From positions 1 to 37,403 of the forward strand of contig JAIQFI010000050.1 in NCBI GenBank assembly GCA_020073345.1: a stretch of DNA of 37,403 bases, in the 5' to 3' direction. A program made the translations under genes and the position numbers. The DNA comes from Terriglobia bacterium (lineage in GTDB: Bacteria; Acidobacteriota; Terriglobia; Bryobacterales; Bryobacteraceae). A model generated the notes under the pieces. It had not been told where the DNA came from and ran no database searches. It saw nothing but the letters and a program-made list of their open reading frames with translations. Shown here one piece after another: positions 19,944-31,488 of the stretch (position 1 is its first letter; each line of letters opens with the position of its first letter).

Positions 19944-20816
19944 CTACTTGGCGAGCAGTTTGCGGATCGCCTGCAACTCACGCCGCCGCTGCGGACTAAG
20001 CGTCGGGTATTCCAGTTTCAGCTCCTTGAACGTGTCGAGAATGATCCGTGAGACGATCAACCGGGTGGTCTCTTTGTCGTCGGCAGGGACCACGTACCAG
20101 GGCGCGGTCTCAGTGCTGGTGGCGCTCAGGCAGGCCTCATACGCCTTCATGTACTGCTTCCAGGATTCCCTCTCCTTGACGTCATCAACGCTGAATTTCC
20201 AGTTCTTCTCCGGCTCGTCGATGCGGCTGAGGAAGCGCTTGCGTTGTTCTTCTTTGGATAGATGCAGAAAGAACTTGATGATCCGGGTTCCATTGCGGTG
20301 AAGGTGATCCTCCAGATTCACGATGGAACGATACCTGTCGCGCCAGATCGTCTTCTCGGCCGTTAGTTCTTCCGGAAGACGCTCGGCATCAAGAATTTCC
20401 TTGTGAACACGAACGATCAGGACCTCCTCGTAATAAGAGCGGTTGAAAATCCCGATGCGGCCACGCTCGGGCAGCTTCCGCGACGCATTCCACAAGAAGT
20501 CGTGGTCCAGCTCCTCGGCGCTGGGGTGCTTGAAACTGAATACCTGGCAGCCTTGAGGATTGACGCCCGACATGACGTGCTTAATGGCGCTGTCCTTGCC
20601 GGCCGCGTCCATCGCCTGGAAAATCAGCAGCATCGCATACGAATCGTCCGCATAGAGCCGGCTTTGCTGCTCGCTTAGCTTATGGACGTGTTCCGCCAGA
20701 AGCGTTTCATACTCCTCCTGCGAGTGATACATCGGTTTCACCCGCGTCGGCCACTCGTCTAAATCGACGTTCTTGCCAGGCCGGACGCGGAAATCGTCGG
20801 GATCGATCTTCTTCAT
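19944..20816 (-). CDS. polyphosphate kinase 2 family protein (polyphosphate:nucleotide phosphotransferase)
   Basis: A 290-residue PPK2-family kinase that transfers phosphate between inorganic polyphosphate and nucleotides. The Walker A loop AMDAAGKDS (about residues 68-76), the [13 protein letters not shown] stretch, the [17 protein letters not shown] segment and the [25 protein letters not shown] lid region are all present. This combination resembles class III PPK2, which can phosphorylate both AMP and ADP, but class assignment by eye is tentative. No signal peptide is seen, so it is cytoplasmic. Its ATG lies one base after the stop of the tetraheme cytochrome gene, making it the last gene of the porin-cytochrome operon, an unusual location. 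Confidence 0.9.
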
Positions 20817-20817
20817 T

Positions 20818-21939
20818 TCACTTCTCCGCGTTCTGGGCGTTCAGATAAGCGACTAGGTTCGCCATCTCCGGCCCGTCGAAACGCGGCCACCCAATACCCT
20901 TGGCTTTCATTTGATCGAGCATCTGGGGGCCATGATGCCACAGCGTCGACACCATCGAGGCAGCGGTAAACGAGCGCCCCGTGCCAGCGAGTTTGGGCGC
21001 TCCGCTCGCAGGGTCGTTATGACAGATGGCGCAGCTCTTTGCCATGAATACACGCCCACCCGCGGCAGGGTTTCCCTGGTCTTGAAAAAATTGCGCGGCC
21101 CACAGATAGCTCGTGATGTCACGCATCTCGCCGAGTTCGAGGGGTGCGGGTGAGGAGGGCATTTTAGGTTCGTGATTCCACATCTCGACGGCGATATCGG
21201 TCAGCGTTTTGCCCTTGATCCGTGACTCGAGCGCAGCCGAACCGCTATGGCAGGCGGCGCACCCCTTTGAGTCGAACAGGGCCTGGCCATTCGCGCCGGA
21301 GGTGATCTCAACGCGAGTAGCCGCGTTCAGCGCCGAAGGCAAGTTCCTTACGTAGACGAGAATATCCGTGAGATCCTGCGCCGTCAGATCGGGCCAGTTC
21401 AGCTTCTTCTTCGCGAATTCCTGTCGCATGGTAGCGGCGTGATTCCACAACGCGTTGACCAGCGCCATCGGCTGACCAATCGATTGCCATTGATTGACGG
21501 GTGTGGCTTCGGGAAGTTTCGCGCCGGTCAGGTCATGGCATTCCGAGCAATGTTTCGAGGAAAACAAGCGTTTGCCACGGCCTGCGTCACCGGGTTTCTC
21601 GAAGAAGCGAGCCGAATAGAAGTAGACGAAGAGATCCGCCGCGGCCTGCTCACTGAGATCGGCGGTCCGGATCGTGCGCGCGCGCATAGACGCCCACATC
21701 GCCGGCGCGTGGTTCCACATGGTGGCCGCGAGCGACGCGGGCGTGAAGTTGCGATCGATACGGCGGCCCAAGTCCGGCGCGACCGTTCCGCCCTTGCCGT
21801 TGATGCTGTGGCACTGAACACAGGAGAGTGTGTCGAACAGCTCCGCTCCGCGCGCGGAATCCGCCACGACGGTAGCCGCGTGCAGGCGCCCAAACGAGAA
21901 CGAAACCGAGAACGATAGCATCACAAGTGTTCGTGTCAT
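20818..21939 (-). CDS. four-domain tetraheme c-type cytochrome, periplasmic
   Basis: A 373-residue exported protein (signal peptide about 1-21) built of four class-I-like cytochrome c domains of about 80-95 residues. Heme motifs are CVQCH (40-44), CSECH (131-135), CAACH (227-231) and CAICH (303-307). Each is followed by a shared [M/L]W[N/H]HxxxM motif at about 74-81, 164-171, 253-260 and 333-340, whose methionine may be the distal heme ligand. Each domain ends in an aromatic-rich helix ([39 protein letters not shown]). The ATG overlaps the stop of the MtrB-like gene (ATGA), and the stop is followed after one base by PPK2. By position it is probably the periplasmic electron carrier serving the outer-membrane conduit. 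I know no named family for the four-repeat form. Confidence 0.9.
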
Positions 21940-23951
21940 CGAGTGAACCTCAGTCCTGTGCTCACCAGGTTCGTGCGGAAGCCTTCATAAAGGTAAGCAG
22001 CCTCTCCGTATCCGTAATACCGCCAATCCGCGAACCAGTTGATCCTCTTCCCGATCGGCAGCCAGAGCGTTGCCAACGGCTGATAGTAGCTGGTTGCCCG
22101 GCTGCCCGACGAGATGAAGAACGACCCGCCCGCCGTGAGCTTCGGCTCTATCCCCGATCCGTGCGGCAATTTAATGTTAAACAACGCGGTCGCGGTATGG
22201 GCGTTGTCGCGATAAAGTGAGATTTGGGGCGCCAGAGTCTGGGGGACAAGATAGCCGATGTCCGAGTGCAGCGTGGATCGGGTGTAGGAACCCTGAAAAT
22301 CCCCAAACTTGCCGCCCGCCGGCGACCAGAACAGGGACAGCGACTCCTGCTGCGACCGATAATCGTAGTTCACCCCGGGCACCGGGTTTTGATTGTTCAG
22401 CAGAGTAAAGTCCGCCGTAAGACCAAGCGAAGTCAAAGCCTGATAGCGCGCCTGCGCATGGACCTTCTGATAGTCGTACGGGCTGGTGCGAAAATACGCG
22501 CCCCCGCTGGACGCCCCTTCCGCTTGGGCACTGATCGAGATTTTCTGGCTGGGACGAAAGGTCACTCCGCCAATGCCGACGTTGCGCCGGAGTCTGGCGT
22601 GATCCGAACTCATGAGCCCCGCGGGTGGGAGAACCAGGTCGTTGGCGTCCCCCCAGACATAGCGGTAGCCGCCGCGCAGCATGAGTTTCGAAGTGACGTC
22701 GTAAAACACGTCGATCTCTTGCTGGCTGTAGTTGGTGGCAAGCGAGGACGCGAGCAGAGCGGCCGTCTTTACAGAGACGCCTGTGCCGGAGAGCGTCTGG
22801 TTCGACGCTGCAGAGCCCGCGCTGTGGAGGCGATCGGTCAGCCAGTACTGGACGATCCGGACCCGGCGCAAGGGTCGGATTTCAGCGCCCAAGCTCCCAC
22901 TCGTGTGAGGCATCTTCGCGGCGGACGAGACCAGATACTGCTGGCTTGTATAGAAGAGTAGCTGACTCTGCAATAACAGATTGCCCGTATCGGTCTGCTG
23001 ATAATGAACGTCGGTGTCGGGCTGGCTATAGAGGAACTGCCCGTAGAGATCGAGCCACGGCGTGGCATTGGCCGTAAAGAGCGCCTTGCTGTAGATGCTG
23101 GTTCCGCGAACACCGTAAGCGGCGAGCAGATTCGTGAGATCGGTCGTCTGGCCGAACACCTTCGTTGCCACGTTGCCGAAATTGACTGAGCCGGGGATTT
23201 GGAAGACGTTCTGATCGTTCTTGAACGTGGTTCCACCCTGCTCGAGCGTCGCGTGAAAACGGCGCAGCTCGAAACGGATGCCGCCGCGGTAAAGATTGGT
23301 CGAATCGCGCAGAGTGTTCGGCACCGGGAATTCGTTGGCGTCGGTGACGAACGTCGTCGCGCCGGTCCCCGCGCCAGAATCGCGATCGTAGGCAAGATAC
23401 GGAATGAACCAGTTTCCCGGCAGCAGATCGAGCTGGAAGCTCGCCAAACGGCGCCGCATGTCGAAGGATTGCTCGTTGAGCACAATGCCCCTCGACAACA
23501 GCGGATCGGCATAGGACGGAAGGAAGTTGAAATACGCGATATCGCGGTAATCTGCATTGAAGTCGTAGAGCTTCACTTTTTTCGCGTCGAGATGGAACGT
23601 CTGGTACGGCTCGTCTCCCCAACCGTTAGCCCGAAACCTGAGCTGGTCGAAGCCGCGATGCCGTGGATCGGTGAGCGTGAAGTCCGTGCCGAGCAACTTC
23701 GGTCCGGAGCCCAGATTTACGATGCTGCGGTAGGTATCGAAGCTGCCGCCGACGGAGGTGCGCCAGCGATAGCCCACATCGATGGAGCCGCTCAGCCAGG
23801 ACTCAGTCGAGGGAACCGGCGAGGATGCCTGGTCGCTGGTGTTCTGCGCGGCCTCAGCAGGAGGATTGGCCGGCTGCTGAGGTTGCGGGGCAGGCGTCTG
23901 CGCCAGCAGCGGCACCACCATCGCCAAAAGAACAATGGGTCGCCGGGTCAT
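21936..23951 (-). CDS. MtrB/PioB-like outer-membrane beta-barrel of an extracellular electron transfer conduit
   Basis: The 671-residue protein starts at the ATG at 23951 (MTRRPIVLLAM...), which overlaps the stop of the MtrA-like gene (ATGA). A longer open frame upstream lies inside that gene. A signal peptide ends around residue 17, then comes a Pro/Gln/Ala-rich linker (about 18-47). The rest shows alternating hydrophobic and polar residues, with many Tyr, Trp and Phe, of a large transmembrane barrel. Conserved-looking segments are GSFDTYRSIVNLGSGPKL, RDIAYFNFLPSYADPLL and LEQGGTTFKNDQNVF. In Mtr/Pio systems the barrel is a sheath holding the decaheme MtrA across the outer membrane. No cysteine occurs anywhere in the protein, so the N-terminal CXXC of Shewanella MtrB is absent. 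The length is close to MtrB (about 680-700). Confidence 0.88.
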   Translation of the reverse strand: MTRRPIVLLAMVVPLLAQTPAPQPQQPANPPAEAAQNTSDQASSPVPSTESWLSGSIDVGYRWRTSVGGSFDTYRSIVNLGSGPKLLGTDFTLTDPRHRGFDQLRFRANGWGDEPYQTFHLDAKKVKLYDFNADYRDIAYFNFLPSYADPLLSRGIVLNEQSFDMRRRLASFQLDLLPGNWFIPYLAYDRDSGAGTGATTFVTDANEFPVPNTLRDSTNLYRGGIRFELRRFHATLEQGGTTFKNDQNVFQIPGSVNFGNVATKVFGQTTDLTNLLAAYGVRGTSIYSKALFTANATPWLDLYGQFLYSQPDTDVHYQQTDTGNLLLQSQLLFYTSQQYLVSSAAKMPHTSGSLGAEIRPLRRVRIVQYWLTDRLHSAGSAASNQTLSGTGVSVKTAALLASSLATNYSQQEIDVFYDVTSKLMLRGGYRYVWGDANDLVLPPAGLMSSDHARLRRNVGIGGVTFRPSQKISISAQAEGASSGGAYFRTSPYDYQKVHAQARYQALTSLGLTADFTLLNNQNPVPGVNYDYRSQQESLSLFWSPAGGKFGDFQGSYTRSTLHSDIGYLVPQTLAPQISLYRDNAHTATALFNIKLPHGSGIEPKLTAGGSFFISSGSRATSYYQPLATLWLPIGKRINWFADWRYYGYGEAAYLYEGFRTNLVSTGLRFTR

Positions 23952-24859
23952 TTCAGCAGATTCCGGTCCACGTAACTTCCGTGGATTTTCTGATGGCATA
24001 CGGTGCAGTTCTGAAAGCGCGGCGAGCGCAGGTCGTGAAAAGACGGCGGCACGACGCCGATTGTGCCGGTGGTGTTTACCGTGGGCAGACTGGCGTGGCA
24101 CTCCAGGCAGAGCAGGCGCACTTCATGCCGCACCAGCATCCGAGGGTTGGCTGAGCCGTGCGGCTCATGGCAGGCCGCACAGCCCTCAAAACGCACCGGT
24201 CCGTGCTCGAAGGTGAACGGCCCGCGCTTGTCGCCATGACATTTCAGGCACCCCGGTTCGTTCGCGGCGAAGACTTGCAGCATGGCCGGGCGGATACTGC
24301 CGTGCGGATTGTGGCAATCGACGCAGCTCATCGCGCCTTCCGGCAGCCGGTGATGATTGGGCCTCTGAAACTGGGCCCACACGTTGGTATGGCAACCGGC
24401 GCACTGTTCGTTGATCGCGGCCGGCTTGCGCAGCACTAATCCGTTAGGCCCGTTCGCGTGTACTTTATGGCACGCCGTACAGGACACCTGATTGTTCGCA
24501 TGACTGCTTTGCAACTGGCCAACATGGGTCGGCTGATTCAGATGGCAGGTGAGACAGCTTTTGTCGGCGGCTGCGGCCACGAGCTTGGATGGATTGCGGA
24601 TGTCCGCGGCCGCGAGGGATTCCGTATGTTTCTGCGCCGAACCATGGCAGGATTCGCAGGCGCGCCCCTCGAATCCGCGCCGTTTGTCGGTCTCCACGGT
24701 GTGGTGCGGACTCTTCTGAAACGCGTTGTAAATGTCCTCGTGGCAGACCCGGCATACTTCCGAGCCGACGTAGCCAGGGGGGAGCGCGGGTTGAGCCGCC
24801 CCGCCGATGGCCGCCAGGAACAGGATCGCGCAACAAGAACGCAGATCACTACTGCGCAT
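23948..24859 (-). CDS. MtrA/DmsE-family decaheme c-type cytochrome
   Basis: A 303-residue periplasmic/outer-membrane decaheme cytochrome. It has a signal peptide (about 1-22) and then exactly ten CXXCH motifs, with first cysteines at residues 36, 68, 102, 127, 153, 179, 204, 227, 251 and 285. Extra histidines placed between them (for example HHTVE, VHANGPNG, NPHGSI, EPHGSAN) suit bis-His ligation. Length, heme number and the repeated CxxCHxxHG pattern match MtrA, PioA and DmsE. The protein forms the wire inside the MtrB barrel. I start it at the ATG at 24859 because the signal peptide begins there. This gives an 11-base overlap with the upstream MtrC-like gene and a 4-base overlap with the MtrB-like gene, so all three are translationally linked. 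Confidence 0.93.
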   Translation of the reverse strand: MRSSDLRSCCAILFLAAIGGAAQPALPPGYVGSEVCRVCHEDIYNAFQKSPHHTVETDKRRGFEGRACESCHGSAQKHTESLAAADIRNPSKLVAAAADKSCLTCHLNQPTHVGQLQSSHANNQVSCTACHKVHANGPNGLVLRKPAAINEQCAGCHTNVWAQFQRPNHHRLPEGAMSCVDCHNPHGSIRPAMLQVFAANEPGCLKCHGDKRGPFTFEHGPVRFEGCAACHEPHGSANPRMLVRHEVRLLCLECHASLPTVNTTGTIGVVPPSFHDLRSPRFQNCTVCHQKIHGSYVDRNLLK

Positions 24860-26951
24860 GCACCTTATCGACCGCAAACTCAGCTCCGGAGCGGTGGCAG
24901 ACCGTGCAGCTTTCCCCCAGCATGCTGGTGTTCGAGAGTGCATGAGAGGCGGTGGGTATGTCCACGTGGCATCCGGTGCACGCCGAAGCGATGGGAAGGA
25001 TTGGGTTGATCGGCCCTTGGGGATCGACGACCGGATTGAGTCCGAGCGGAAGATTGAGCTCGCTGTCGTTGACGTGGCACAGCGCGCAGTTCCTGGTATC
25101 CGTTGCCGCGCCGCTGGGACTCAGGGCGGGGAAGAGTGTCTGGCTGAAGTCGTTGTGAGTTCCGCCGAAGCCGACCACCACGTAGCTGCGCTTAGACGCT
25201 TCCATATTGATGCCAAAGTGGATGCGGTGCACCAGCAGGTTGAAATTGATGCCCTGCGGAGGGACAGCCTTATCGGCAGCGCTCGTGCGTCGGGCCACAT
25301 CCGAGTTCGATGGGTTGTGGCACAGCACGCAGTACTCGGTGTTGTTGCGAAGCGCGCCATGCAGCGACAGCGCCACGTGGCACTGATTGCAGTTGCTTAC
25401 TGCCACCACTGCTCGCCGGGGCGCAACCGGTGATCCGTCCACCGAAAAATACTTCACCTGATTCTTGGCCCCGTACTGAATTGCTTGTTGCTTGTCAGTG
25501 CCGGCCAGAACGGTCTCGCTCCGCCTCGCCTCCACGCCGATGGCATAGGTGCCGGTCGCGTTGGCCGGAACCGATCTGGTGAACGTGTAGGTGCAGTTGC
25601 TGCTGGCGTCGCAACTGGCTTGCGCGGCGCTTTCTGTCACGTATCCCGGCGTGGTCGCGTTGCCGAAAGTGGTGTAACCGTAGTCGGAGGTCGGTCCAGC
25701 CATGGTGAACGAAATCGAAGCAAGTTTCGATAGCGGAACCGGGTTCGCGCTGCCGTCTTGCACGGTGAACGACACCACCGGCAGGCTCCCCGCCGTCCCG
25801 TTCGCGACCTTCGTGATGTTGACTACCAGGCCCGAGAGCAAACTGGACGCGGTCGGCGCCACGTGCGCGCCCTTGATCGATGCGTCGAAGTCGATTTCGC
25901 CTTGCGGGATATGGCACGTCGCGCATTGAGTGTCGTCAGACTGAGGCCCGCCGGGGTGATTCGCGCCGGTCGCGAAGTTCACGTCATCGTGGCAGGAGCT
26001 GCAGGCCGCGCGCGTCGGATGAAGCAGATAAGCGGTTGCGTGCGTTGCACCGGTGGTTTGCGAGTGGCAGGTTTCGCATCGCCGCGGATCGCCCGGATCG
26101 GCCGGATAAGCCACTTTCGAGAAGTCAAAACTTCCGAACTGATTGATGGCGGGTATATAAGGCGTGCCCGCCTGCACGCTGGGGAGATTCTTGCCCATGT
26201 GGATCTTGTGAAAGAGAACCTTGGCGTCCATGGTGGCGCCGGTATTGGGATCGCTGGTCTGTGGCGTGTGGCATAACACGCACAGTTCGATGCCGCGCCG
26301 CGATCCCCCGTGCGCCGACAACTGATCGTGGCAGGCATTGCAGCTCGTAGTCTTGATGATGTCGTGGGTATTGGTTACGGCAGCGCCGTTGGGAACGAAG
26401 TTAAAAGTCGCGCTGGCGTAGTTGGTGCCTAAGTTGAAAATCGTCAAGTTTCGGGAACCGTAAATGCCGATCGTATGCGTGGCCGTCGGATCGATGTTGG
26501 AGGGCGCTCTGGTATGGAATGTGTATTGATATTGCCCGTGTGCGGCCGGCGTGGATATGCCTCCCGAATCGGCTCCCGCCTGCTGCGTGGAACCAAGCAC
26601 TGTTCCCGTCGTCGGACGCGTCGTGTAGGACGTATAGTGGTCCTGATCGTTGGGGAGCACGGCCGCGACGAAGCTCAGGCTGATGGTTCCCGGCGTGGTC
26701 ACGCCCGAGGAATCCAGCGGCAGCCCCTGAGGATCGGTGATGGTGTAGACGGTCGTGATGGTGCCGTCCGCCGCGATCTGCGCCGAGTTGATCTTGATAA
26801 CAAGACCAGGCCGGACGAACTGGACCGTGGGATCATCCGCGAAAAACGCCCGTTCGCGTGGAGAATACGGCCGCCGGGGCGCGCTTGTCAAGCCCACCGC
26901 AAGCAATCCGGCGATCGCCGCCACTCGCCACTGGGTCCCCAATAATTTCAA
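24849..26951 (-). CDS. OmcA/MtrC-family decaheme c-type cytochrome, cell-surface terminal
   Basis: A 700-residue exported decaheme cytochrome. The start is a TTG at 26951 with AGGAGG six bases upstream, giving an N-terminus MKLLGTQWRVAAIAGLLAVGL that is a good signal peptide; a TTG at 26975 would add eight residues. It has two beta-rich domains (about 35-200 and 360-515), each followed by five CXXCH hemes. First cysteines are at about 204, 224, 292, 317, 343 and 521, 541, 622, 658, 682. This two-times (beta domain plus pentaheme) plan is that of MtrC and OmcA, which pass electrons to minerals or other extracellular acceptors. A CX5C pair near 447-453 in the second beta domain recalls the disulfide of MtrC. 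No lipobox cysteine follows the signal, so it may not be lipid-anchored. Confidence 0.93.
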   Translation of the reverse strand: MKLLGTQWRVAAIAGLLAVGLTSAPRRPYSPRERAFFADDPTVQFVRPGLVIKINSAQIAADGTITTVYTITDPQGLPLDSSGVTTPGTISLSFVAAVLPNDQDHYTSYTTRPTTGTVLGSTQQAGADSGGISTPAAHGQYQYTFHTRAPSNIDPTATHTIGIYGSRNLTIFNLGTNYASATFNFVPNGAAVTNTHDIIKTTSCNACHDQLSAHGGSRRGIELCVLCHTPQTSDPNTGATMDAKVLFHKIHMGKNLPSVQAGTPYIPAINQFGSFDFSKVAYPADPGDPRRCETCHSQTTGATHATAYLLHPTRAACSSCHDDVNFATGANHPGGPQSDDTQCATCHIPQGEIDFDASIKGAHVAPTASSLLSGLVVNITKVANGTAGSLPVVSFTVQDGSANPVPLSKLASISFTMAGPTSDYGYTTFGNATTPGYVTESAAQASCDASSNCTYTFTRSVPANATGTYAIGVEARRSETVLAGTDKQQAIQYGAKNQVKYFSVDGSPVAPRRAVVAVSNCNQCHVALSLHGALRNNTEYCVLCHNPSNSDVARRTSAADKAVPPQGINFNLLVHRIHFGINMEASKRSYVVVGFGGTHNDFSQTLFPALSPSGAATDTRNCALCHVNDSELNLPLGLNPVVDPQGPINPILPIASACTGCHVDIPTASHALSNTSMLGESCTVCHRSGAEFAVDKVHAQ

Positions 26952-26991
26952 GGAGGCCCTCCTCTCTGACAGCAACTTGGATGACTCCTTG

Positions 26992-28680: not shown

Positions 28681-29118
28681 CGCTTGAATAACGATGAGAG
28701 TCCGGGTGTTGGCCAGACGTAGCCGGGCCTCGGTGGCCACCTGAAAACCGGCCATACGTGGTCACTTCAGAACCGGCCAACGGAACTGAGCCAGAACAAG
28801 AGTATTTATAACCGCCGGGCCGTTTCGGTAAACATTTTTCGCAATCCAACCTGAAGGGGCTTTATGCTGGCCAGACCTGGACGGAGGACACGGCAACGCA
28901 GGAATGCGACCAGAGCGCCGTTCCAAGGCCGGAATGGCGGGCGCGCGCAAGCCGTTCCGTCCCGCAGCCATTCTGGCGGGAAAGCGATAAATTCCGGGAG
29001 CGCGAGGGCCGATGTTCCGACCGGCCTCTCGATCCAACTGTGTTCGAAAGTGACGCTCATCGACGGTACAGTGGTCAGTACCAGGTATCAGAGATTCACA
29101 CTCGGCCGACATTGGTCG
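28681..29118. other. intergenic stretch with insertion-sequence-end-like repeats
   Basis: No gene is supported here. An open frame continues upstream of the repeat-protein start to 28864, but its translation is Arg-rich and lacks a signal peptide, so it is treated as non-coding. The first part carries two tandem 25-base repeats (separate entry). Confidence 0.5.
28733..28781. repeat. tandem 25-base repeats resembling an IS21-type element end
   Basis: Two adjacent copies of a unit starting GTGG(C/T)CAC and ending ACCGGCCA(T/A)AC lie at 28733-28757 and 28758-28781. Multiple short terminal repeats of this GTGGTCAC...ACCGGCCA type are, from memory, seen at ends of IS21-family elements. No transposase gene or second end is visible, so this would be a solo relic. 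Confidence 0.4.
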
Positions 29119-31488
29119 ATGCGTGGATCTGTGAGACAGCTTCCACTTCTACGAATCGGTTGCCTGGGGCTGATTAGTTTCATGGGTGGAAGCGAAATCG
29201 GCCTCGCGCAGAGCGTTACTGTCTCTGTAGGTTCCGGTTCGGGAACCGCGGGCGGTTTGGTCGTTGTCCCGATCAATTTGGCGTCCTTGGGGGGAGTACA
29301 GACTGCCGCTGTTCAATGGTCACTGAGCTATTCCTCGGACATCACGAGCGTCGCGTTCGCGATCGGAACAGTAGCCACAAGTGCCGGCAAATCTATAGCA
29401 TGCAATGGAAACCTATGCCTGATTTACGGTTTGAATGCCACCCCAATTTCAGACGGAACGGTGGCGACCGCCACACTGCAGATATCACCTAATCCATCCA
29501 CCTCCACGATACCGATTCAAATCACCGGAGTGATTGCGGCAACACCGTTGGGTGGATCGACTTCGACTGCTGGCGTAGCAGGAACGGTTTCGGTTTTGCC
29601 AATGCCCGAGTTGAGCGGACTTGCATGCTCCCCTACCACCTTGAATACACCGGGGACTACACAATGCACGATTTCCGTAACGGCACCGGCTCCGGCGGGA
29701 GGATTCGTGGTCGGACTTTCGAGCAATAACGGAAACCTAACGGTGCCTTCCAGCGCAACAGTAAACGCGGGCCAGAGTACGGTCAACTTCACGGCAACTG
29801 CTACTCAGGTCGTCGCAGATCAGGCCGCCACGGTCACAGCCAGCGTGGGAGGCGATTTTCGATCTGCTACGTTAAGTCTGGTCGCTCCAGCCGCATTGCT
29901 TAGCGTGGCCTGCGCGCCTAGCGACCTCAACAGCGGCGCAACCAGCGCCTGCACAGTATCGTTGAGCAGATCTGCCGTAAGCACTGCCATCGTGTCTGTC
30001 GGCAGCAACAACCCGCTGGTTACGGTGCCAGGCAGTGTGTCTGTATCGGTAGGACAAAGTACCGCAACGTTTCAAGCCGTGGTCGGAAGCGTTAACGTCG
30101 ACCAGGCCGCCATCGTCACGGCAAGTCTGAACGGACAAGACCGGTCGGTGACGCTCAGTTTACGAGCGCGGCCAGTACCTACGGCAGATTCGGTGTCGCC
30201 AAGTGCCGGCGCAGGCTTCAGGCAAACCTTCACCTTCGTCTTCTCCGATAGCCAAAGCGCTGCCAATCTCGCCGCCGTGGCAATATTATTCACGCCTGCG
30301 CAGGCACTTGAAAATTCCTGCTTCGTTGTGTACGACCGGAATCGAGGAACCATCCAGCTGGAATGGGACACTGTCCTGGGCGCACAGATCGAACCGGTGA
30401 GTTCGTCCATCACTCTGGAGAATAGCCAGTGCACGATCGGCGCGACCTCGGTGGCAGCGACGGCCCTCACTACCACCATTACACTGGACATCACATTCAA
30501 GAACAGTTTCGCCGGCCTGAAGAACATCTACATGTACGCAGCAGACGGAGACGGTTCCATCAACACTGGCTGGATACACAGAGGCGCCTACACTGTAGCC
30601 GGACTATCTCCTCCGGTGCCGGCGGCTGACTCGGTATCGCCGGAGGGCGGCAGTGGCTTCATGCAAACCTTCACATTCGTCTTCTCCGACAGTCAGAGTT
30701 CAGCCAACCTGGCGGCCGCCGCCATGCTGTTCGCACCTGGACTGGTTGCTGAAAATTCCTGCTACGTCGTGTACGACGGGAATCGAGGCACCATCCAGCT
30801 GGAGTGGGATAGTGTAATGGGCAATGCAATCAAGCCGGTGGGTTCGTCGACTGTGCTGCAAAACAGCCAATGCTCGATCGGTGCAACCTCGGTGACAGTC
30901 TCAGCGCTTTCTACCGCCATCTCTCTGGACGTCACCTTCAAGAATTCATTTGCCGGCCTGAAGAACATCTACATGTACGGAGCCGATGGAGACGGCTCGA
31001 TTAATACAGGCTGGGTGCAAAAGGGCACGTACACTATAGCCGTAGTTAGCCCGCCTGTACCGACAGCCGAATCGGTGTCGCCAAGTAGTGGCGGTGGCTT
31101 CGTGCAAAGCTTCACTTTCGTTTTCTCCGACAGCCAGAGTTCGGCCAATCTGGCTGCCGCCGCCATCCTGTTCGCACCCGAAATGATCGTTGAAAATTCC
31201 TGTTTCGTTGTGTACGACCGGAATCGAGGCACCATCCAGCTGGAGTGGGATACGGTAATGGGTAATGAAAGCAAGCCCGCCGACTCGTCTACGACGCTGC
31301 AGAACAGCCAATGCACGATCGGCGCAACCTCGGTGACAGCGACGGCGTTGTCTACGACTATTACCTTGGACATGACCTTCAAGAGCGCTTTCACCGGCCT
31401 GAAGAAGATCTACATGTACGGAGCCGACGGAGACGGTTCGATCAACACCGGCTGGGTGCAGAAGGGGACCTGGACTCCCGGCCAGTAA
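29119..31488 (+). CDS. secreted protein with a cohesin-like domain, Ig-like domains and three exact-period repeats
   Basis: A 789-residue exported protein starting at ATG 29119, chosen because a signal peptide (to about residue 31, GLAQ) follows. Residues about 32-158 look like a cohesin/CBM-type beta sandwich (AGGLVVVPINLAS, AVQWSLSYSSD, GLNATPISDGTVA). Residues about 165-350 hold two Ig-like/Big-type domains with paired cysteines. Then come three tandem repeats starting at residues 352, 499 and 646, with an exact 147-residue (441-bp) period. Each repeat has TFTFVFSDSQS, RGTIQLEWD, NSQC and GLKNIYMYxADGDGSINTGW. From memory this last unit recurs in Acidobacteriota secreted proteins. A role in adhesion or surface display is likely; no enzyme motif is seen. 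Confidence 0.83.
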   Translation: MRGSVRQLPLLRIGCLGLISFMGGSEIGLAQSVTVSVGSGSGTAGGLVVVPINLASLGGVQTAAVQWSLSYSSDITSVAFAIGTVATSAGKSIACNGNLCLIYGLNATPISDGTVATATLQISPNPSTSTIPIQITGVIAATPLGGSTSTAGVAGTVSVLPMPELSGLACSPTTLNTPGTTQCTISVTAPAPAGGFVVGLSSNNGNLTVPSSATVNAGQSTVNFTATATQVVADQAATVTASVGGDFRSATLSLVAPAALLSVACAPSDLNSGATSACTVSLSRSAVSTAIVSVGSNNPLVTVPGSVSVSVGQSTATFQAVVGSVNVDQAAIVTASLNGQDRSVTLSLRARPVPTADSVSPSAGAGFRQTFTFVFSDSQSAANLAAVAILFTPAQALENSCFVVYDRNRGTIQLEWDTVLGAQIEPVSSSITLENSQCTIGATSVAATALTTTITLDITFKNSFAGLKNIYMYAADGDGSINTGWIHRGAYTVAGLSPPVPAADSVSPEGGSGFMQTFTFVFSDSQSSANLAAAAMLFAPGLVAENSCYVVYDGNRGTIQLEWDSVMGNAIKPVGSSTVLQNSQCSIGATSVTVSALSTAISLDVTFKNSFAGLKNIYMYGADGDGSINTGWVQKGTYTIAVVSPPVPTAESVSPSSGGGFVQSFTFVFSDSQSSANLAAAAILFAPEMIVENSCFVVYDRNRGTIQLEWDTVMGNESKPADSSTTLQNSQCTIGATSVTATALSTTITLDMTFKSAFTGLKKIYMYGADGDGSINTGWVQKGTWTPGQ
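30172..31485 (+). repeat. three tandem 441-bp coding repeats
   Basis: Copies begin at 30172, 30613 and 31054. The period is exactly 441 bases both times, and DNA similarity between copies is high, with runs such as ATCCAGCTGGA(A/G)TGGGA and AACATCTACATGTACG(C/G)AG nearly unchanged. The third copy ends at the stop codon. This points to recent duplication or ongoing exchange among copies. Confidence 0.88.

Follow-up and report, generated by a model that had tools for sequence, protein, structure and literature searches.

The closest described relatives of the gene cluster analyzed here are the MtrCAB porin-cytochrome systems, for whose Mtr complex the consulted part of PMC7198977 gives 20 bis-histidine (bis-His) hemes. 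The consulted sections of Baker et al. (2022; PMC8805035) define an MtrCAB Group 5 from five hits in Acidobacteriia (Bryobacterales and unclassified members). In every one of them a tetraheme cytochrome, predicted to be periplasmic, is encoded immediately downstream of mtrB, and the authors state that the group has neither an mtrC duplication nor a putative inner-membrane quinone oxidoreductase near mtrCAB. In the consulted sections of other sources, Eichorst et al. (2018; PMC5900883) report mtrA and mtrB homologues but no complete operon in several acidobacterial isolates, and a 2013 peat metagenome study (PMC3669403) proposed on the basis of decaheme genes that Acidobacteria reduce Fe. For Acidobacteriota from wastewater, PMC8100337 describes multiheme cytochromes and names no Mtr protein there, and Acidobacteria go unmentioned in PMC11475568. 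Here we analyze a cytochrome and barrel gene cluster on contig JAIQFI010000050.1 of a Terriglobia bacterium of the Bryobacteraceae (assembly GCA_020073345.1); the whole stretch of 37,403 nucleotides is referred to as the window. The cluster very probably encodes an MtrCAB-type conduit of the Bryobacterales kind, which would work with a tetraheme cytochrome (D) and a membrane protein encoded elsewhere in the genome (E) and carry electrons net outward.

The conduit genes stand in the order C-A-B-D:

24849–26951, minus strand: C, OmcA/MtrC-family decaheme cytochrome without a lipobox; 700 aa, TTG start at 26951, ten CxxCH motifs

23948–24859, minus strand: A, DmsE/MtrA-family decaheme cytochrome with a hydrophobic N-terminal segment; 303 aa, ATG at 24859, ten CxxCH motifs

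21936–23951, minus strand: B, divergent MtrB-like outer-membrane barrel, free of Cys; 671 aa, ATG at 23951, no CxxCH motif

20818–21939, minus strand: D, four class-I cytochrome c domains, probably periplasmic; 373 aa, ATG at 21939, four CxxCH motifs

Neighboring genes overlap by 11 nt (C/A), 4 nt (A/B) and 4 nt (B/D). An earlier note on this DNA had reported the same order and overlaps, which we obtained again on recomputation, and its gene content (two 10-heme proteins and a barrel of these sizes, followed by a tetraheme cytochrome) agrees with the CxxCH counts and reading frames. The start of C is likely, though not certainly, at 26951, which is preceded by AGGAGG and aligns with Met-Lys of some relatives (e.g. 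loci L031 and L035); an alternative TTG at 26975 is also preceded by a ribosome-site-like sequence.

With its origin in the Bryobacterales, its clustered mtrC-mtrA-mtrB genes and a tetraheme gene directly after mtrB, the cluster is, tree placement aside, a real member of MtrCAB Group 5. The arrangement as such was already published in 2022, and D is not the new periplasmic partner that the earlier note had seen in it, since the consulted sections of Baker et al. describe a D-type tetraheme cytochrome for this group (PMC8805035). What is new here is E, the occurrence of tandem mtrC genes, a W-x-H/His ligand prediction for D and the lack of a lipobox in C.

TIGR03507 recognizes C with 451 bits (cut-off 209.3; the curated cut-offs for C, A and the polyphosphate kinase described below are those of NCBIfam) and PF22113 with 152.9 bits, and among solved structures C matches MtrF, OmcA and MtrC. 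Frames of relatives were read from stop to stop, and some include residues upstream of the true start. Across 53 aligned C frames, exactly ten His outside CxxCH are conserved at ≥95%, five in each five-heme half, so that C has the ten CxxCH motifs, ten distal His and two five-heme domains of an OmcA/MtrC protein; the alignment contains fragments, with ten CxxCH in 48 rows and 0, 3 or 9 in the others. TIGR03508 gives A 256.2 bits (cut-off 192.2), the solved structure that A matches best is chain A of the Mtr complex (6r2q_A, E 6.4e-35; the database molecule name of this chain is wrong), and exactly ten His outside CxxCH are invariant in all 57 aligned A frames. Because these His are conserved across the aligned relatives, chance is excluded as the source of the heme pattern of C and A. 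The gene order, the ten plus ten hemes and the conserved distal His are shared with Shewanella MtrCAB (6r2q). Shewanella MtrC carries a lipid anchor, and here C differs: inspection of the N-terminus of the window's C revealed no lipobox, and a loose lipobox pattern occurs in 2 of 53 C rows (six rows have no letters there), both times with the Cys inside the hydrophobic segment. A further difference is a CX5C pair, present in 24 of the 53 C frames, rather than the CX8C of Shewanella-type MtrC.

Conservation was followed in a survey of 151 genomes (the window's own and 150 relatives) and in two sets of loci. B is matched at E≤1e-60 in 66 relatives, and set 1 takes one locus from each of 60 of these, leaving out G039, G043, G045, G072, G080 and G091 with their broken B matches; set 2 comprises 80 stretches from named records, the best among 134 that were confirmed. 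The sets overlap, 38 of the 60 loci in set 1 having sequence in common with a locus of set 2, and their counts should not be read as independent. A search of the genome contigs that started from one B sequence yielded no relative, and an alignment of 28 B proteins recovered relatives. At each search's own threshold, C is matched in 69, A in 125, B in 114 and D in 70 of the 151 genomes, and 63 of the 91 genomes of the family have an OmcA/MtrC match. Where more than 3.5 kb lie upstream of B, A precedes B without exception (48/48 in set 1, 61/61 in set 2) and C is found upstream at 44/48 and 53/61 loci. D, counted with an allowed overlap with B of up to 700 nt, follows B at 35/56 set-1 and 52/73 set-2 loci with room (53 if L126 is included by eye). 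Tandem mtrC genes occur at three of the 60 loci (L034, L054, L071) and four of the 80 (L096, L134, L145, L166; at L140 the frames are broken), and L159, L160 and L161 have the order A-B-C, with C downstream, instead of C-A-B. The record titles of set 2, the named loci with the closest B, are acidobacterial in 78 of 80 cases, the nearest two being Terriglobia and Bryobacteraceae, in agreement with the earlier note's assignment to a probable Acidobacteriota genome; the remaining titles, Nevskia soli and Candidatus Sumerlaeaceae, perhaps belong to misnamed metagenome-assembled genomes (MAGs). Bog, fen, palsa and peat MAGs make up many of these named records (best 80 of 134 by barrel match).

The barrel is the divergent part of the conduit. 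Family models proposed earlier as a check recognized C (TIGR03507) and A (TIGR03508), and for B the outcome was negative: the window's protein matches no NCBIfam or Pfam model, neither TIGR03509 nor PF11854, it does not reach the curated MtrB/PioB score, and TIGR03509 finds no match anywhere in the window's genome. Among 67 aligned B proteins (the window's and 66 of the 80 from set 2), TIGR03509 matches five and PF11854 matches 16 at E≤0.01, an E threshold in place of the curated cut-offs. An AlphaFold2 model of B is a confident barrel (pLDDT 84.5, pTM 0.74) with 27 strand elements, one of which probably forms no separate barrel strand, in line with a 26-strand barrel like that of 6r2q_B. In a fold search with this model, 6r2q_B (MtrB) ranked first of 204 matches at E≤0.001 (E 7e-14, TM 0.66/0.68), and the remaining 49 of the best 50, mostly TonB-dependent receptors, all had TMq values of 0.33–0.46. 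In the model, the first four strands are short and strands 1 and 2 are separated by a helix; both traits are described for Shewanella MtrB in the consulted part of PMC7198977. By its predicted fold, B is a divergent MtrB-like barrel of the same kind, outside the curated sequence family, and differs from Shewanella MtrB further in being free of Cys.

Other conduits occur beside this one. In the window's genome, contig C39 (L174:8183-11260) carries a second pair of MtrA-like protein and barrel, of which the former scores 260.6 bits on TIGR03508 and the latter has no NCBIfam match and is 26% identical to the window's B; weakly matching barrels next to A of this sort are found in many relatives. 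The curated MtrB/PioB cut-off is passed in seven of the 151 genomes (G005:C45, G025:C213, G042:C28, G081:C181, G088:C514, G117:C5 and G134:C20), and as a cluster of the window's type is present in several of these genomes too, conduit types coexist.

D consists of four class-I cytochrome c domains (PF00034/PF13442) and is probably located in the periplasm, where it would take the place of the STC/FccA-kind carrier of Shewanella. We aligned the window's D with 54 of the 55 D frames listed. Each domain has a W-x-H motif within a predicted helix. All 55 aligned proteins have the His of this motif in each of the four domains; a Met four residues further on is found in 55, 55, 49 and 54 of them, in domain order. 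We infer from this pattern that the His may be the sixth heme ligand in the D domains. The PdsA periplasmic shuttle model NF049874 matches 31 of the 55 D proteins at E≤0.001, an E threshold and not a curated cut-off. Like PdsA of the Aeromonas/Vibrio-type MtrCAB clusters, D is a putative periplasmic carrier encoded beside mtrCAB; unlike PdsA with its two heme domains, it has four. The same genome encodes, at the end of a contig, a D paralogue that has four CxxCH motifs and is 39% identical (contig C98, L175:7853-8857).

The window's own cluster has no quinone-linked gene. The earlier note had called the operon complete, which is too strong a word, since the likely candidate for this step, E, lies on another contig. 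E scores 31.2 bits against PF03264 (NapC/NirT/NrfH; cut-off 24.1) and has hydrophobic N-terminal segments, five CxxCH motifs and one CX3CH motif; by score, membrane N-terminus and several hemes it belongs to the NapC/NirT/NrfH family. It is a NapC/NrfH-like membrane protein with six heme motifs and likely the inner-membrane partner of the conduit. The window's genome has a single copy (contig C32, 63174-64571), well inside a 136-kb contig. In relatives, E follows D or B at 10/49 set-1 and 18/64 set-2 loci with room, and anywhere in the locus, sometimes upstream of B, at 16/60 and 26/80. Both of the closest relatives, with B 82–84% identical, carry E, which in L089 starts 1 nt after D. Counted without regard to the kinship of the genomes, C and E occur together in eight genomes of the genus (one with C only, none with E only, 14 with neither), in 59 of the 91 genomes of the family (four C only, two E only, 26 neither) and in 63 of all 151 (six C only, 17 E only, 65 neither). 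The larger set thus departs from Group 5 as published on five hits in having tandem mtrC genes and in having E beside the cluster, so that the statement that no quinone oxidoreductase lies nearby fails there.

At two loci many CxxCH repeats lengthen E (L082:8314-11820 in G098; L087:9320-11980 in G085, with 17 in L087). In L082 an open frame of 1169 aa, containing 27 CxxCH, continues from E into the MtrA-like part without an ATG at the junction, possibly an inner-to-outer-membrane fusion or else a frame artefact.

Taken as a pathway, menaquinol would be the most likely electron source and would reduce E in the inner membrane; D would carry the electrons across the periplasm to A, and A, held inside an outer-membrane barrel of about 26 strands formed by B, would pass them to C on the cell surface. 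From there, they may go to acceptors outside the cell, for example humics or the oxides of Fe(III) or Mn(IV). Outward flow is on balance the probable direction, given the MtrC-type C, the NapC/NrfH-like E and the PdsA-model matches among the D proteins. It is also favored because RuBisCO has no match in the window's genome and because Paludibaculum fermentans, an isolate linked to the window's organism by order only, is an Fe(III) reducer rich in multiheme cytochromes (PMC8407742).

Several results weigh against a conduit of this composition and direction. Besides the missing quinone-linked gene in the cluster and the missing model match of B, a profile of B compared with three canonical acidobacterial MtrBs gave a probability of 2% (E 0.024), with only three sequences on one side, and the same profile searched against the sequences of solved structures found no MtrB and nothing relevant. 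D is missing at 21/56 set-1 and about 20/73 set-2 loci with room, the 31 matches to the PdsA model do not include the D of the window, and no solved structure reached E≤0.001 in a fold search with the D model. Genomes with E and no C are also found beyond the family (17 of all 151 have E only), and the co-occurrence counts of the two take no account of kinship. It would be very hard, however, to maintain that B has nothing to do with MtrB and is some other large barrel, for instance of the TonB-dependent receptor type, placed among cytochrome genes by chance. The absent MtrB match and the low probability in the profile comparison would fit such an origin, but the fold match to 6r2q_B far exceeds that to all other listed barrels, MtrB/PioB models match B proteins of relatives, and A is linked to B at every locus with upstream room. 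Also improbable, if somewhat less so, is a conduit built for the extracellular respiration of a dedicated soluble substrate, comparable to DmsEF and dimethyl sulfoxide, with C as a non-metal terminal enzyme. TIGR03508 does cover DmsE as well and C has no lipid anchor motif; yet C is a full OmcA/MtrC-type decaheme protein, and no molybdenum-type reductase gene was recognized beside the cluster among the scanned window proteins, some open reading frames having been left unscanned.

The direction is less firmly set than the nature of the conduit. With Fe(II), reduced humics, an electrode or a partner cell as the donor, electrons could enter through the same proteins and pass via D to high-potential carriers and oxidases in a Pio/Mto-like manner, which we consider unlikely, though a good deal less so than the two explanations above. 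Class-I cytochrome domains are often high-potential and those of D would suit electron uptake; several of the best family models of D are oxidase- or bc1-linked (ccoP, QcrC), and two heme-copper oxidases exceed the cut-off in the window's genome. The inward-working PioAB/MtoAB systems of iron oxidisers resemble the cluster in their pair of decaheme cytochrome and barrel, but are not known to include MtrC. The MtrC-like C therefore speaks against inward flow, and of the earlier description as Mtr/Pio-type the Mtr part stands, on the TIGR03507 and TIGR03508 scores and the fold of B, while the Pio part fits poorly. The NapC/NrfH kind of E and the lack of a RuBisCO match point the same way, although a heterotroph could still take up electrons. 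Because His and not Met is invariant in all four domains of D, which hints at a lower potential, the case that D makes for uptake is lowered but not dropped. According to the consulted sections of Baker et al. (PMC8805035), Mtr systems can run backwards, which tempers the outward reading that we favor.

Downstream of the conduit genes lies one further gene on the same strand, beginning 1 nt past D:

19944–20816, minus strand: PPK2-family polyphosphate kinase, probably outside the conduit; 508 bits against NF042973, cut-off 450

The range 19944–26951 given in the earlier note covers the conduit genes and also spans this gene, which the note did not mention. We rejected PPK2 as a member of the conduit, as it is found at none of the 60 set-1 and none of the 80 set-2 loci. 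Beyond it, a glucose-6-phosphate dehydrogenase gene lies on the opposite strand. Elsewhere in the window, 28864-31488 encodes an 874-aa protein with three similar repeats of more than 100 aa seen by eye, which Pfam DUF5643 matches below its cut-off only. On contig C46 of the same genome (L177:6434-10770), adjacent frames contain 23 and 29 CxxCH motifs, the second reaching the contig end.

With E and tandem mtrC, the published picture of Group 5 is corrected, and D gives a testable ligand prediction. More tentatively, the Bryobacteraceae may possess a quinone-to-surface pathway of their own, C-A-B-D-E, with a dedicated E, a bis-His four-domain fused D and an anchor-free surface MtrC, from which in the window's organism E would have left the operon and PPK2 would have come to stand after D. 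With E, the inner-membrane step that had been missing gains a concrete candidate, and experiments on a cultured relative could now put the pathway to the test. Should it work, carbon oxidation could be linked to the redox cycling of iron or humics in many acidobacteria of wetlands and soils.

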